Shown: positions 43,082-64,000 of the stretch, one piece after another | Layout: each line of letters opens with the position of its first letter | Position numbering within the stretch: the first letter of the stretch is position 1 | NCBI RefSeq assembly: GCF_009068765.1 | Contig: NZ_CP035534.1 | Coordinates: forward strand, 682,001 to 746,000 | Origin: Sulfurimonas hydrogeniphila | GTDB taxonomy: Bacteria > Campylobacterota > Campylobacteria > Campylobacterales > Sulfurimonadaceae | Reading direction: 5' to 3' | DNA: 64,000 nucleotides | The notes under the pieces: model-generated | Databases searched by the model: none | The model's input: the letters and a program-made list of their open reading frames with translations, nothing else | What the model was told of the DNA's origin: nothing | Program-made: the position numbers and the translations under genes

Positions 43082-43157
43082 GGGCGCTTAGCTCAGTTGG
43101 TAGAGCGCTACCCTTACAAGGTAGATGTCACTGGTTCGAGTCCAGTAGTGCCCACCA
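43082..43157 (+). tRNA. tRNA-Val (UAC), copy 1
   Basis: A 76-base tRNA with CCA encoded. The acceptor is GGGCGCT/AGTGCCC, the anticodon stem CTACC/GGTAG with loop CTTACAA (anticodon TAC). It is identical to the copy at 43624. Confidence 0.95.
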
Positions 43158-43410
43158 TTTTTTGATTATTTGCACTCAAATTTTTAGTTCACGTACTTAA
43201 GTGCGCTTCACTAAAAACTTAAGCACAACTAATGCAAAAAACAAGTTTTTTCTTTCTTTAAAAAAGAAAATGTGACAATTTTTTATAAAATTCTTGATTT
43301 TTGTTTTAATCAAGGCAGGCTCTAGAGTGAAAGAGGAGCATAGTTATACTATGTGACGATTGAGCGAAAGGTTCTAACGCCGAGTAAAGCAAAAAGCATA
43401 ATTTTAGGTT
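43158..43410 (+). other. Conserved structured tRNA spacer, copy 1
   Basis: A 253-base non-coding spacer. It holds a long imperfect hairpin near 43180-43218 (TTTTTAGT...ACTAAAAA), a second hairpin CTTGATT/AATCAAG near 43291-43313, and GCATAGTTATACTATGTG near 43338-43356, with a 6-bp stem CATAGT/ACTATG. No open reading frame is credible. The repeat at 43700-43952 keeps all of these. Confidence 0.7.
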
Positions 43411-43623: not shown

Positions 43624-43699
43624 GGGCGCTTAGCTCAGTTGGTAGAGCGCTACCCTTACAAGGTAGATGTCACTGGTTCGAGTCCAGTAGTGCCCACCA
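43624..43699 (+). tRNA. tRNA-Val (UAC), copy 2
   Basis: Identical to the tRNA-Val at 43082 and part of the second duplicated unit. Confidence 0.95.
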
Positions 43700-43952
43700 T
43701 TTTTTGATTATTTGCACTCAAATTTTTAGTTCACGTACTTGAGTACGCTTCACTAAAAACTTAAGCACAACTAATGCAAAAAACAAGTTTTTTCTTTCTT
43801 TAAAAAAGAAAATGTGACAATTTTTTATAAAATTCTTGATTTTTGTTTTAATCAAGGCAGGTTCTAGAGTGAAAGAGGAGCATAGTTATACTATGTGACG
43901 ATTGAGCGAAAGGTTCTAACGCCGAGTAAAGCAAAAAGCATAATTTTAGGTT
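43700..43952 (+). other. Conserved structured tRNA spacer, copy 2
   Basis: Same spacer as 43158-43410. In the first hairpin it reads CGTACTTGAGTACG where copy 1 has CGTACTTAAGTGCG; both versions still pair with at most one G-U. Confidence 0.7.
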
Positions 43953-59186: not shown

Positions 59187-59213
59187 GAAATCTTATAAGT
59201 AAAAGGATTGATA

Positions 59214-59561
59214 ATGTCACATATACCCAATGAAGCTGAAAAAATAGTTGTTGACGGTGCTACCGTTGATTTTTATAAATTGCAAAAAGATGGAGAAAGT
59301 ACCTATTATTTTGATACATCAAAAGAGGGGCCGCCACACCCAATGGTAAATGCAATGGCAGGCTTGGCTCTTATAAAAGGAACTAATGACACTTTGGTGA
59401 TGATAAACCATAAAGCACCGGGAGGACTTTTTGCAAAACTTGAAGATGATGTGAAGTATGATATACAAGAGCTGGATGACGGTTTGGTAAAAGTTGTTTT
59501 TTCATATAACAAAGATGCTGCAAGTGAATCTGATTTGACACAGACAAGTTGCGGCGGTTGA
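59214..59561 (+). CDS. DUF2249-like protein
   Basis: A 115-residue soluble protein from ATG 59214 (AAAAGG at 59201 as ribosome-binding site). The segment PPHPMVNAMAGLALIKGTND ... INHKAPGGLFAKLEDDVKY ... ELDDGLVKVVF follows the DUF2249 pattern of a TusA-like fold. It ends in a CGG tail. Such proteins are common beside nitric oxide and nitrite genes, but their function is unknown. It is the first gene of a three-gene unit behind Fnr-type boxes. Confidence 0.72.
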   Translation: MSHIPNEAEKIVVDGATVDFYKLQKDGESTYYFDTSKEGPPHPMVNAMAGLALIKGTNDTLVMINHKAPGGLFAKLEDDVKYDIQELDDGLVKVVFSYNKDAASESDLTQTSCGG

Positions 59562-59569
59562 GTTGAGTA

Positions 59570-60808
59570 ATGGTAAAAATATCGCAGGACTTTGCACCGC
59601 CGTTTAAACTGATAGCTCCTTTTTTCCTGATAGGGAGCCTGTTTTATTTTTTTGCATCAGTCTATCTTTTTTCATTTGATGCTGCAAATCTCTCTTTTGT
59701 CAACCCGGATATGATGGCATTTGTGCATCTGTTTTTATTGGGTTTTGTCATGATGGTGATTTTTGGTGCAATGGCACAACTGGTTCCGGTTGTTCTTGAA
59801 GTCGGACACTTTGGTGTAGAACTTTTTTATGCAATTTGGCCGTTGCTGCTCACGGGTACACTGCTCATGGTGTTCGGATTTTTGTATTTTCCCGCGCTGC
59901 TGCCTTACGGCGGTGTGACTGTATTGATATCTATGCTGATATTTGTAGGCGAAATTTTTTTAACAATATTTAAAGTCAAAAAATTAACTTTGGTGATGAG
60001 CAGTCTGCTCATTTCAAATACTTTTTTGTTTTTCGGAATAATTTTTGGGCTTTTAATGGCACTCTCTTATGCCGGAACAGTTTCTTTGGATATTGCATCC
60101 TTGCTGAAGGCCCATGTCTATGCGGTTTTAGGCGGTTACATTGCGATAACCGTTATGGGACTCTCTATTGTGCTTGTTCCTATGTTTACGCTCTCACACA
60201 GCTTTTCTTTGAAACCGTTAAAGATTTCTTTGATTATGATGAGTATGGCTGTTGTGAGTGTTGTCATATCTTCATTTTTTAAGATAGATATACTGGCCTA
60301 TACCGGCTATGCTTTGGCAGCTGTTTCGATGATCGTCTATTTCTATCTTATCTATATAATTTACAGTACAAGACCAAGAAAAGAGAACGATATCTATGCG
60401 GTCTCTTTGATGTTCTCTTATATTTCCATGTTGGTTTCCATTGTGATTGTCGTGTTTTATTTTCTGACACAAAAAGAGGAATTTTTACTGGCCTCTATGT
60501 GGCTGTTCTTTTTTGGATTTTTTGCTTTTTTGATTACAGGGCATATTTACAAAATAATTCCGTTTTTGGTCTGGTTTGAAAAGTTTTCACCATTGGTAGG
60601 GAAACAGAAGGTTCCGATGCTGGCAGATATGGTACCGTACAAAAGTTCGCAGGCTCAGTTTGTATTTTGTGCAGTCGGTGTTGTTTTGATTACCATCGCA
60701 ATACTTACAAAAGGTGATGCATTGCTGCATGCCGGTGCTTCTTTTCTTTTTATAGGAACATTGGCATTTATCAGAAATGTATTTTATATGATAAATTTTA
60801 AAGCATAA
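59570..60808 (+). CDS. Twelve-helix membrane protein resembling haem-copper oxidase subunit I
   Basis: A 412-residue, very hydrophobic protein with about 12 membrane helices. AFVHLFLLGFVMMVIFGAMAQ (His near residue 53), LKAHVYAVLGGYIAI and GHIYKIIPFLVWFEKF carry conserved-looking histidines inside helices, as in the NorB/CcoN superfamily and its uncharacterised relatives. The full set of six metal-ligand histidines is not visible, so it is probably not an oxidase. A role in nitric oxide handling is suggested by the neighbours only. Confidence 0.6.
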   Translation: MVKISQDFAPPFKLIAPFFLIGSLFYFFASVYLFSFDAANLSFVNPDMMAFVHLFLLGFVMMVIFGAMAQLVPVVLEVGHFGVELFYAIWPLLLTGTLLMVFGFLYFPALLPYGGVTVLISMLIFVGEIFLTIFKVKKLTLVMSSLLISNTFLFFGIIFGLLMALSYAGTVSLDIASLLKAHVYAVLGGYIAITVMGLSIVLVPMFTLSHSFSLKPLKISLIMMSMAVVSVVISSFFKIDILAYTGYALAAVSMIVYFYLIYIIYSTRPRKENDIYAVSLMFSYISMLVSIVIVVFYFLTQKEEFLLASMWLFFFGFFAFLITGHIYKIIPFLVWFEKFSPLVGKQKVPMLADMVPYKSSQAQFVFCAVGVVLITIAILTKGDALLHAGASFLFIGTLAFIRNVFYMINFKA

Positions 60809-60830
60809 AATTTTAGAAGAGGAGAATTAC

Positions 60831-61133
60831 ATGTATACAAAAGATGAATTATTTCAGGCAATTTCAACGGTTATAGATCCGGAAGTAGGTTTTAATCTTG
60901 TGGAAATGGGTCTTATCTATGATGCCAGTTGTGATGAAGAGGGGAATGCTAAAGTAGTCATGACGCTTTCAACAAAGGCCTGTCCTATGCATCAGATGAT
61001 TTTGCAATGGGTAAAAGAAGCAGTAGAAAAACTGCCAAATGTAAAAAGTGCTGATGTAGAAGTTGTCTGGGAACCGCAGTGGAATATTTCCATGGCTGAT
61101 GAAAATGTCAAAAAAGCACTGGGTGCTGCCTGA
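60831..61133 (+). CDS. DUF59/MIP18-family metal-sulfur cluster protein
   Basis: A 100-residue SufT/PaaD-type protein: IDPEVGFNLVEMGLIYD is the family start and the conserved cysteine is in TKACPMHQMI. Family members help to mature Fe-S proteins. GAGGAG precedes the ATG. It ends the DUF2249-like/membrane-protein unit and suggests that the unit handles a metallocentre. Confidence 0.9.
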   Translation: MYTKDELFQAISTVIDPEVGFNLVEMGLIYDASCDEEGNAKVVMTLSTKACPMHQMILQWVKEAVEKLPNVKSADVEVVWEPQWNISMADENVKKALGAA

Positions 61134-61137
61134 TTGT

Positions 61138-61165
61138 ATGAGCCTACTCTTGAGGCTCATGTTTT
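61138..61165 (+). terminator. Terminator after the DUF59 gene
   Basis: ATGAGCC / GGCTCAT with a 9-base loop, followed by GTTTT. It overlaps the 3' end of the convergent gene at 61144. Confidence 0.7.
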
Positions 61166-61437
61166 AAATAACTGTTTTTTATCAGTATCATTTCATATAC
61201 CGAAACTTTTGGCATCGCTTCGTCTATAAGTCGGTCTGTATCTTTATATTTACCCTGCATTCTTTTTATATCATCATAGGCTTTCGGCTTGACTTCACTT
61301 GTTGCAACAGAAATAACAGCAGCCCATATAAGAATAATGGCAATCCATACTATTTTTTTAGCACCGGCATACACGCCTAAAAAATGAAAGATAATTGTCA
61401 GAACAATTCCAATACTCAACAAAAATGTCAAACTCAT
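61144..61437 (-). CDS. Small two-helix membrane protein, nir-linked unknown 3
   Basis: A 97-residue protein with two membrane helices (about 2-22 and 27-46) and a polar tail containing RMQGKYKDTDRLIDEAMP. Its ATG overlaps the stop of the preceding gene (ATGA), with AAGGA upstream. It shares an RMQG-x-acidic tail motif with the gene at 61585, hinting at common origin. I do not recognise the family. It belongs to an overlapping set behind the siroheme decarboxylase gene. Confidence 0.65.
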   Translation of the reverse strand: MSLTFLLSIGIVLTIIFHFLGVYAGAKKIVWIAIILIWAAVISVATSEVKPKAYDDIKRMQGKYKDTDRLIDEAMPKVSVYEMILIKNSYLKHEPQE

Positions 61438-61595
61438 AAATGTATCCTTTCTCCTTCTGGGGTAATTGTAATATTTGCATCTTTAAACATCTGATCTCCA
61501 AAATCTTTGACACCCAGGGTTCCCAGCAGCATTAAAATGACAACTAAAAACAAAAAAATGACAGCCATACCATATCTTTTGAATCTACTTATCAT
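61434..61595 (-). CDS. 53-residue membrane protein, nir-linked unknown 2
   Basis: Starts at ATG 61595, inside the last codons of the upstream gene, and ends overlapping the next. It has one membrane helix (about 8-30, MAVIFLFLVVILMLLGTLG) and a short periplasmic or cytoplasmic tail (FGDQMFKDANITI). The tight overlap on both sides supports expression. The function is unknown. Confidence 0.6.
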   Translation of the reverse strand: MISRFKRYGMAVIFLFLVVILMLLGTLGVKDFGDQMFKDANITITPEGERIHL

Positions 61596-61988
61596 TTTCA
61601 GTCTCATCTTTTGGGGCAATAGGTGAATAGTCTACGCATCTTGCCGTATGAAAATCTCTGATAAAATCAGGATTTTTGAAGTAATCACCATCAAGTCTCC
61701 ATCCAAGCTTTTTTGAAATCAAAACAGATTGTGAAATGGTTCTTCTCATTTTGTTTTCACAGATAACAGTCTTGCCTTCATTAAAGATTTCTTTGACACC
61801 CTGCATTCTTTTGGTAGTTACAAAATAATGAATACCTATCATAATGGCAAATATGGCAAATATACCAGACATTCCTTTTTTAAAGGCACCTTTTGGCATA
61901 AAATCCCTTGTTGTGACAAAGGCGGTAATGGCCAAAAAAATATTCCTATTACAATATATGCAATTTCCAGCTCAAAAAATCTTTCCAT
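61585..61988 (-). CDS. Membrane protein, nir-linked unknown 1; frame interrupted in a T7 run
   Basis: ATG 61988 follows a strong AAAGGAGAA site and encodes MERFFELEIAYIVIGIFF, the start of a membrane helix, but then leaves frame at seven T residues (61934-61940) and soon stops. The other frame, open from TTG 61935, continues the helix and gives 116 residues: a second helix (MSGIFAIFAIMIGIHYF) and a polar domain with two cysteines (VICEN, ARCVDYSP). One additional T would join them into about 134 residues. Annotation as TTG 61935-61585 is the conservative alternative. Confidence 0.6.
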
Positions 61989-62000
61989 TATATTTCTCCT

Positions 62001-63005
62001 TTATGCAACTGTAGCATGTTTTTTTTCCCATTCGGCAAATTTGGGTGTGAAATACTCAATTCTTACCTTTTTAAACTCTTTTGATGAGTACAGAGGCATG
62101 TAGTCTTTTGATTCTATCTCCTGTGCCATCTCCGCAATCATGGCATTTGTCTCTTGGGTCGTTTTTCCGTGGACCATTGTAAAGAGATTATAGGGCCAGT
62201 TTTTGTATTTTGGACGCAGGTAGCAGTGACTTACGGCAGAAAAAGCCGCTGCCTTTGCACCTATGGCATCGCCGAGTGTTTCATCAATATCCCAGACAAC
62301 CATGGCATTTGCATTAAAACCTGCTTTTCTGTGGTTTAAAATGGAAGCAAACCGTCTCATGACACCGGCTTTCTGCAACTCCTGCAGGGTATTGAAAAAG
62401 GTTTCGTAGTCTATATCAAGATCATTGATGATATCAGCAAACGGTTCGCTGACAAAGTCAATGTCATACTGTACTCTCTGAATAATTTTATGGTGTAAAG
62501 GTGTCAGTTCTATATCTTTATGGACAACCTTTTTTACCTCTTCTTTTTTTTCGTCTTTTCCTGTCGTATTGAGTTTGACATTGATCTTAAAAAGCTTCAG
62601 GGTAGGCAGAACAATATAATCATCTGCCTCTGCAAGGCTGGCAAGCGTTTGTATTGTTTTTTCTAAACCCAAAACAGAATCAGGTGCAACTGCCATGGTA
62701 AACCAGATGTTAAAATCATGGTTTCTTTCGTAGTTATGCGAAACACCGGGATGGGCATTGATAATCTTTACGGCACTGTTGATTTTTTCTTCGGGAATTT
62801 TAAACGCAACCAGAGATGATTTGTACCCCAGGCGTTTTGTGTCAAATATGGCGGAAGTCTGACGTATGATATTTGCTTTTTTTTCTGCTTGCAATATCTC
62901 TAAAACTTCATCTTCTCGCATACCCAACTCATCAGCAATCACCTCAAAAGGTTTTTGTACCAACGGAAACTTTTTCTGTATTCTTGAAAGTATCTCTTGT
63001 TTCAT
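62001..63005 (-). CDS. Fused two-domain siroheme decarboxylase (NirDL/AhbAB-like)
   Basis: Decarboxylates siroheme to didecarboxysiroheme in heme d1 (or alternative heme) synthesis. The 334 residues are two AsnC/Lrp-type units in tandem: about 1-150 (VSHNYERNHDFNIWF) and 170-330 (VSHCYLRPKYKNWPYNLFTMVHG). Both carry the SHxYxR signature with the active-site histidine; many organisms encode the two units as separate proteins. It heads a minus-strand operon with the three small membrane genes and diverges from the siroheme synthesis gene across an Fnr-type box. Confidence 0.88.
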   Translation of the reverse strand: MKQEILSRIQKKFPLVQKPFEVIADELGMREDEVLEILQAEKKANIIRQTSAIFDTKRLGYKSSLVAFKIPEEKINSAVKIINAHPGVSHNYERNHDFNIWFTMAVAPDSVLGLEKTIQTLASLAEADDYIVLPTLKLFKINVKLNTTGKDEKKEEVKKVVHKDIELTPLHHKIIQRVQYDIDFVSEPFADIINDLDIDYETFFNTLQELQKAGVMRRFASILNHRKAGFNANAMVVWDIDETLGDAIGAKAAAFSAVSHCYLRPKYKNWPYNLFTMVHGKTTQETNAMIAEMAQEIESKDYMPLYSSKEFKKVRIEYFTPKFAEWEKKHATVA

Positions 63006-63140: not shown

Positions 63141-63707
63141 ATGGCTTATTTTCCGGCATTTTTAAAATTAGACGGTAAAAAAATTCTTATAGTAGGTGGC
63201 GGAAATGTTGCGTATGAAAAGTTGGAACATCTTCTTGATTTTACAAAAGACATATATATCATTGCAAATGAATTTTCACAAGAGATGCTGCAACGTATAC
63301 AGGAAGAAAATCTTGTGTATGAAAAGCGTAAGTACAGAAAAGGTGATATACGGGAGTTTGCTGTTGTAGTGGTTGCTGTGGACAGTATTGCACTGCAGGC
63401 GGAGATATTTGAGGAGTCCAAGCAGTACAATTGTTTGTGTAATGCTGTGGACTCAGTGGCCTATTGTGATTTTATTTTTCCTTCGTATGTAAAAAAAGAG
63501 GATCTGATTATTGCAATATCAACTTCAGGTGCTTCTCCTGCAATGGCAAAACATTTAAGAAAGTATCTGCAAAAGATGATTCCAGGTGGAATTTCGAAGT
63601 TTTTGCAGGAGATGAAAAAACTGCGTAAAAGTTTGCCCAAAGGAAAAGAGAGAATGAAAATGCTTGATGAAAAAGCAAAAAAATATATAGAAAATTGGAG
63701 TCAGTAA
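63141..63707 (+). CDS. Precorrin-2 dehydrogenase/sirohydrochlorin ferrochelatase (Met8/CysG-N type)
   Basis: A 188-residue enzyme that oxidises precorrin-2 and inserts iron to give siroheme, the precursor used by the divergent decarboxylase. It has the NAD-binding KILIVGGGNVAYEKLEHLL, the catalytic aspartate region (NAVDSVAYCDFIFPS) and SISTSGASPAMAKHLRKYL. There is no methyltransferase domain. Its stop overlaps the ATG of the next gene. Confidence 0.92.
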   Translation: MAYFPAFLKLDGKKILIVGGGNVAYEKLEHLLDFTKDIYIIANEFSQEMLQRIQEENLVYEKRKYRKGDIREFAVVVVAVDSIALQAEIFEESKQYNCLCNAVDSVAYCDFIFPSYVKKEDLIIAISTSGASPAMAKHLRKYLQKMIPGGISKFLQEMKKLRKSLPKGKERMKMLDEKAKKYIENWSQ

Positions 63708-64000
63708 TGAATGCTAAAAAAGGATTGTTTTTAGGGATGTTGTTTGCATTTTTTGCACTTGGGTTTATAGCGATACAAAAAGCTACCCCGGATACAAAGC
63801 CGCACAGAATTTACAAAGAGATTAAAGTCTACAGTCCGTATAAGTTTGAAAAAACAATCGGGGGTCTTGCCATTGTAGATACAAGAACAGGGACCAAAGA
63901 GAAACCGGATGCGGCAGATTCATTGTACCGTATGGATGAACTGGACCAGAAGTGGGGAAAAAAACATTTGAAAGTTATCGGAAATGATGTTGTCGTCCTT
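63707..64000 (+). CDS. Exported or membrane-anchored protein of unknown function (3'-truncated by window)
   Basis: 98 codons are visible from ATG 63707, which overlaps the preceding stop. There is an N-terminal hydrophobic helix (GLFLGMLFAFFALGFIAIQ) acting as signal or anchor, then a soluble region (KPHRIYKEIKVYSPYKFEKTI...). No motif is recognised in this part. By position it belongs to the siroheme/heme d1 operon. Confidence 0.6.
   Translation, partial: MNAKKGLFLGMLFAFFALGFIAIQKATPDTKPHRIYKEIKVYSPYKFEKTIGGLAIVDTRTGTKEKPDAADSLYRMDELDQKWGKKHLKVIGNDVVVL

Follow-up and report, generated by a model that had tools for sequence, protein, structure and literature searches.

Small membrane proteins encoded behind a heme d1 gene in Campylobacterota are probably partners of a nitric oxide reductase rather than of nitrite reductase

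Nitric oxide reductase makes N2O, and the Campylobacterota rank among the important denitrifiers of vents and redoxclines. The cNOR enzymes studied so far, built from NorB and the c-type cytochrome NorC, need NorQ and NorD for their non-heme iron. These two form a pair of a MoxR AAA+ and a VWA-domain protein which inserts this iron, FeB, into cNOR. In NorB of Paracoccus, D220 and E222 are required for the NorQD-driven insertion (PMC9976466). There are also alternative nitric oxide reductases, such as gNOR, with a cupredoxin as second subunit, and gNOR has been reported for Sulfurimonas, Sulfurovum and Persephonella (PMC8756737).

The stretch of DNA analysed here (the window, 64,000 nt from the single-contig, 2.34-Mb genome of Sulfurimonas hydrogeniphila) carries on its minus strand three genes for small membrane proteins: X1, the core protein (61585–61988, ATG at 61988), X2 (61434–61595, 53 aa) and X3 (61144–61437, 97 aa). 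X1 starts 12 bases behind the gene of a fused AhbA/AhbB-type siroheme decarboxylase (NirDL) of the heme d1 pathway (62001–63005, minus strand). X1 and X2 overlap by 11 bases, X2 and X3 by 4. A sequence-only reading had proposed this arrangement of three overlapping membrane-protein genes, and coordinates, predicted helices and orthologues confirm it. Of 35 loci measured, 34 show the 4-base overlap of X2 and X3, and the fetched loci hold 95, 85 and 82 distinct orthologues of X1, X2 and X3, respectively. Thus, the trio is a genuine feature beyond chance.

The sizes given in that reading hold for X2 and X3, whereas the 134-residue frame of X1 is intact in relatives but broken in the window assembly. 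The frame that opens at 61988 is lost at a run of seven A/T bases (61934–61940, minus strand), and the remainder of the protein lies in a different frame at 61585–61935. The nearest relative (G408, with an X3 97% identical) has an intact X1 gene of 134 residues. Over a 17.8-kb comparison with this relative, the break is the sole isolated, uncompensated single-base indel inside a gene body; all others are cancelling alignment pairs or runs, or are situated at gene ends or in intergenic regions. It is either an assembly error or a real mutation. Since the window copy is frame-broken, the sequence and structure analyses of X1 are based on orthologues.

Two membrane helices are predicted for X1, one for X2 and two for X3, and nearly all orthologues agree in this. 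In X1, F4, E8, Y11, T22, H54, T58, R61, F69, G72, C77, W97, F113 and C118 are conserved down to 28% identity; the residues kept in X3 include W31, W38 and an invariant H18 in the first helix. An AlphaFold2 model of an X1 orthologue (pLDDT 88) consists of helices at residues 2–26 and 35–70, followed by a small C-terminal beta domain with the two conserved Cys. Judged by the positive-inside rule, both ends of X1 and the two-Cys domain would be periplasmic, with E8 and H54 towards the same side. The motif RMQG, described before as a shared tail of X1 and X3, is indeed present in both (as KRMQG), but mid-protein and poorly conserved: X1 orthologues keep R61 and vary at Q63, those of X3 keep mainly the G. 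A common origin of X1 and X3 was rejected, as the profile comparison gave a probability of 0.9%.

None of the three proteins has a significant Pfam or NCBIfam match, and family searches bear out the earlier statement that they match no known component of heme d1 synthesis or nitrite reductase. Weak matches to ASTER, OppC_N, DUF3333 and NDUF_B12 were below the cut-offs and are read as generic membrane similarity. No usable match to X1 was obtained by PDB sequence search, nor by Foldseek with the orthologue model. Furthermore, no description of X1–X3 or of the protein p129 (see below) was found in the literature and family libraries searched; most subscription journals lay outside this search, so an earlier mention there is possible.

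X1 is present in 25 genera of Campylobacterota. Its range is stated for this phylum, as a contig scan with two conserved peptides returned close relatives only. Named relatives with X1 are mostly Sulfurimonas or other Sulfurimonadaceae, and X1 was not found in plasmids or viral contigs. X2 and X3 were seen only in the family of the window, Sulfurimonadaceae, and X3 never without X1. Most of the 80 loci in which X1 was found show the order decarboxylase-X1-X2-X3. A second group of loci has X1-X2 without X3, divergent from p129 and away from the decarboxylase. In the window, p129 begins on the plus strand at 63707 and continues past the end of the window at 64000 (genome C1:745707–746084), downstream of a met8/cysG-N-type precorrin-2 dehydrogenase gene (63141–63707, plus strand). 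It has one membrane helix and a predicted periplasmic domain, mixed alpha/beta in the model, with no Pfam family at E<=0.1 and no usable NCBIfam, PDB or Foldseek match. In the family sample, 83 of the 91 genomes that have X1 also have p129; it is missing from the X1-positive genomes G365 and G383, and occurs also in other families of Campylobacterota. A direct comparison of X1 and p129 showed them to be unrelated.

Several other genes lie close by. About 15 of the 80 loci have the gene of a pentaheme c554-type cytochrome (five CXXCH) after X1, between X1 and X2 (for instance, L070 10720–11853 and L071 10428–11627, also L072, L073 and L074); similar c554-type genes adjoin nirS in other families. 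Three genes at 59208–61133 of the window run convergently to the trio: those of p117, which has very weak DUF2249/rusticyanin matches, of a 412-aa protein with several helices and no Pfam match, and of a DUF59 protein. Elsewhere in the window, at 43119–43279 and 43661–43821, two matches to the Rfam antisense RNA HPnc0260 lie opposite tRNA genes; both are barely above threshold and possibly spurious.

The position behind the decarboxylase in most loci suggests a role for heme d1 or NirS, in anchoring, in assembly or in the export of the d1 precursor, whose necessary passage through the membrane is mechanistically unexplained so far (PMC13168839). Indeed, the statistics appear to support this. 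Among 397 sampled Campylobacterota genomes, X1 was found in 75 (weak matches excluded), proteins with a cd1 domain in 80 and both in 73, leaving nine discordant genomes (Fisher p 9e-69, a significance inflated by shared ancestry; phi 0.93). The co-occurrence that had been suggested as a check is, for cd1 proteins, seen in 73 of 75 X1 genomes. It has exceptions in both directions, however. The single-contig, complete genome G252 possesses nirS, nirC, nirJ, nirF, nirE, the siroheme decarboxylase and met8, the full heme d1 gene set, and neither X1 nor X3 nor p129 was detected in it; conversely, G496 has X1, p129 and a NorB of the kind found in the window genome (window-type NorB), but no cd1-domain protein. 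By the earlier criterion of absence from relatives that share the nir cluster, the nir-cluster reading therefore fails in G252: X1 is not present wherever a complete d1 set exists, and other cd1-positive genomes lack it too. X1 accompanies, moreover, two kinds of NirS which are only about 29% identical to each other, while NorB stays at about 70%; where some Campylobacterota have the second NirS kind in their nir clusters (L202, L208), X1 and the NorB kind are unchanged. The association of X1 with cd1 is very strong but looks indirect, since the discordant genomes separate by the type of their nitric oxide reductase. Export of heme d1, our initial leading idea, was abandoned after inspection of these genomes, and we now consider a role for heme d1 or NirS unlikely.

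The link to NorB is strict. Window-type NorB (66–100% identity) occurs in 24 of 67 genomes tested, which were picked by their X1/cd1 status and hence provide a discriminating test and not an estimate of prevalence. All 24 have X1, and none of the 41 X1-free genomes has this NorB. Only one of the 67, G127, holds X1 without window-type NorB; it is also the sole tested X1 genome with neither NorB nor a cd1 protein, and its X1 (L219 8160–8552) has Asn at His54, a position invariant in alignment A5. A further genome, G469, is 70% complete and has an 85% NorB fragment. Of 21 tested cd1-positive genomes without X1, none has window-type NorB; NorB is here lacking, distant or canonical (39–42% identity to that of the window genome). 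Distances of X1 correlate with those of NorB at 0.55 when NirS is removed, and with those of NirS at only 0.09, practically nil, when NorB is removed (18 genomes, pairs non-independent). The p108-norC-norB genes are about 13 kb from the trio in the window genome, and in several genera X1 is immediately upstream of them. We consider the window-type nitric oxide reductase well supported as the partner; the trio thus probably belongs to this enzyme and not to nitrite reductase, although X1 often adjoins heme genes (decarboxylase, met8). What had been proposed before, a module of uncharacterised membrane proteins which is linked to denitrification and might assemble a reductase, stands in this respect; its assignment to nitrite reductase does not, as the discordant genomes follow NorB.

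NorD shows the reverse distribution. It is absent in 23 of the 24 genomes with window-type NorB, the exception, G129, carrying also a canonical NorB, and it is present in 13 of 13 genomes tested that have canonical NorB but not X1; in G351, G353 and G415 the canonical gene adjoins NorD- and NorQ-type genes. The two residues required for insertion in Paracoccus are presumably D233 and E235 of 3O0R, located in the patch GVDRE, if placed via the numbering offset of E198/E211. The FeB His numbers of the same study (PMC9976466) do not fit this offset. Two canonical NorB have GVDRE at the patch. All 31 window-type NorB sequences are altered there (GAHRK, GAKRE, GAKRQ, GASRK, GAHRQ, GASRQ, HANRQ), the D being never acidic and the E in only six, while the catalytic His/Glu motifs are retained in all 31, as in the canonical ones. 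With this patch altered and NorD mostly absent, the partner enzyme does not fall among the NorQD-dependent cNORs, as far as the offset-dependent residue mapping holds.

Could the proteins sense nitric oxide, or protect against it, and not act on the reductase? An invariant membrane His and two Cys might bind heme or NO, and in G249 (L211) the genes of p117, the 412-aa and the DUF59 protein come immediately after X1, the same neighbours as those of the window trio. Genomes with canonical NorB, however, handle NO as well and do so without X1, and family searches of the trio found no recognised signalling domain. We regard such a role as very unlikely.

Two readings then place the proteins at the reductase itself. 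The first, to which we give about even chances, is that X1, with p129 and in Sulfurimonadaceae also X2 and X3, constitutes an accessory module of a NorQD-independent nitric oxide reductase. Trio and p129 would reside in the cytoplasmic membrane beside the NorB/NorC complex, their soluble ends in the periplasm. From there the module might help to load or assemble NorCB, with regard to FeB or to heme and subunit assembly, and so would replace NorQ/NorD. Conservation, predicted topology, the genomic association with window-type NorB and not with NirS, and the lack of NorD and its docking patch are computed results; contact with NorCB, the periplasmic orientation and the role in maturation are inferred. 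According to the second, X1, and likewise X2, X3 and p129, are permanent small subunits of NorCB-p108, providing stability, docking or a site of electron entry. The same genomic association with NorB would be expected for a subunit. The strong conservation of X1 over 25 genera, its place directly beside p108-norC-norB in several of them and the pentaheme cytochrome gene that a minority of loci carry between X1 and X2 also agree with it. The X1 gene mostly lies apart from norCB, though, whereas p108 is inside the operon, and the occurrence of X1 mirrors that of the assembly factor NorD. Neither point is decisive, but because of them we prefer maturation, which is probably the role of the X1 module, and consider a permanent subunit possible though rather doubtful. 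The qNOR matures without helper proteins; hence, loss of NorQD need not demand a substitute, and a structural role of X1 would be compatible with it. Only tentatively do we extend the maturation reading to an undescribed, phylum-wide route for cNOR, in which the work of the NorQD ATPase machinery, be it FeB loading or enzyme assembly, would be done by X1 with p129, joined in one family by X2 and X3.

Here, a widespread lineage has genomes without NorD, a NorB without the docking patch and a strict, uncharacterised membrane partner. For the question how a NorQD-free cNOR assembles, a short list of genes is now available. Linkage to nirS alone would have pointed to the wrong partner.

Comparison with the known systems specifies this further. 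The trio shares its gene neighbourhood with NirE, NirDL, NirJ, NirF and NirC and has no sequence match to them. p129, with one helix and a periplasmic domain, has a layout which we take to be like that of FixH/CcoH, an assembly factor of cbb3 oxidase, and it fails as a member of this family by the negative Pfam search. gNOR is also a nitric oxide reductase of these bacteria, but the partner enzyme was rejected as gNOR because its second subunit is a cytochrome c, NorC, and not a cupredoxin, and because a gNOR-like pair is encoded separately. This pair (L226 3436–5735; C1:664.4–666.7 kb), by our own reading a COX1-family subunit and a cupredoxin-type second subunit, lies beside a NarK-like transporter. 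The partner enzyme resembles the cNOR of 3O0R and 4XYD: its NorB has retained HLWVE, GHH, SALEP and AHGH as catalytic motifs, with a match to 3O0R at E 1.7e-97, and its NorC, encoded adjacent to norB, has one CXXCH. This NorB is about 40% identical to the canonical NorB found in the phylum and lacks the GVDRE patch, and its operon includes p108, with norD and norQ not beside it. NorQ and NorD are described as cytosolic and ATP-driven; X1–X3 and p129, in contrast, are small membrane proteins without an ATPase or VWA domain and without sequence relation to them. Like NorQ and NorD, however, they are proposed to be needed for a mature cNOR, and their presence is tied to one kind of NorB.
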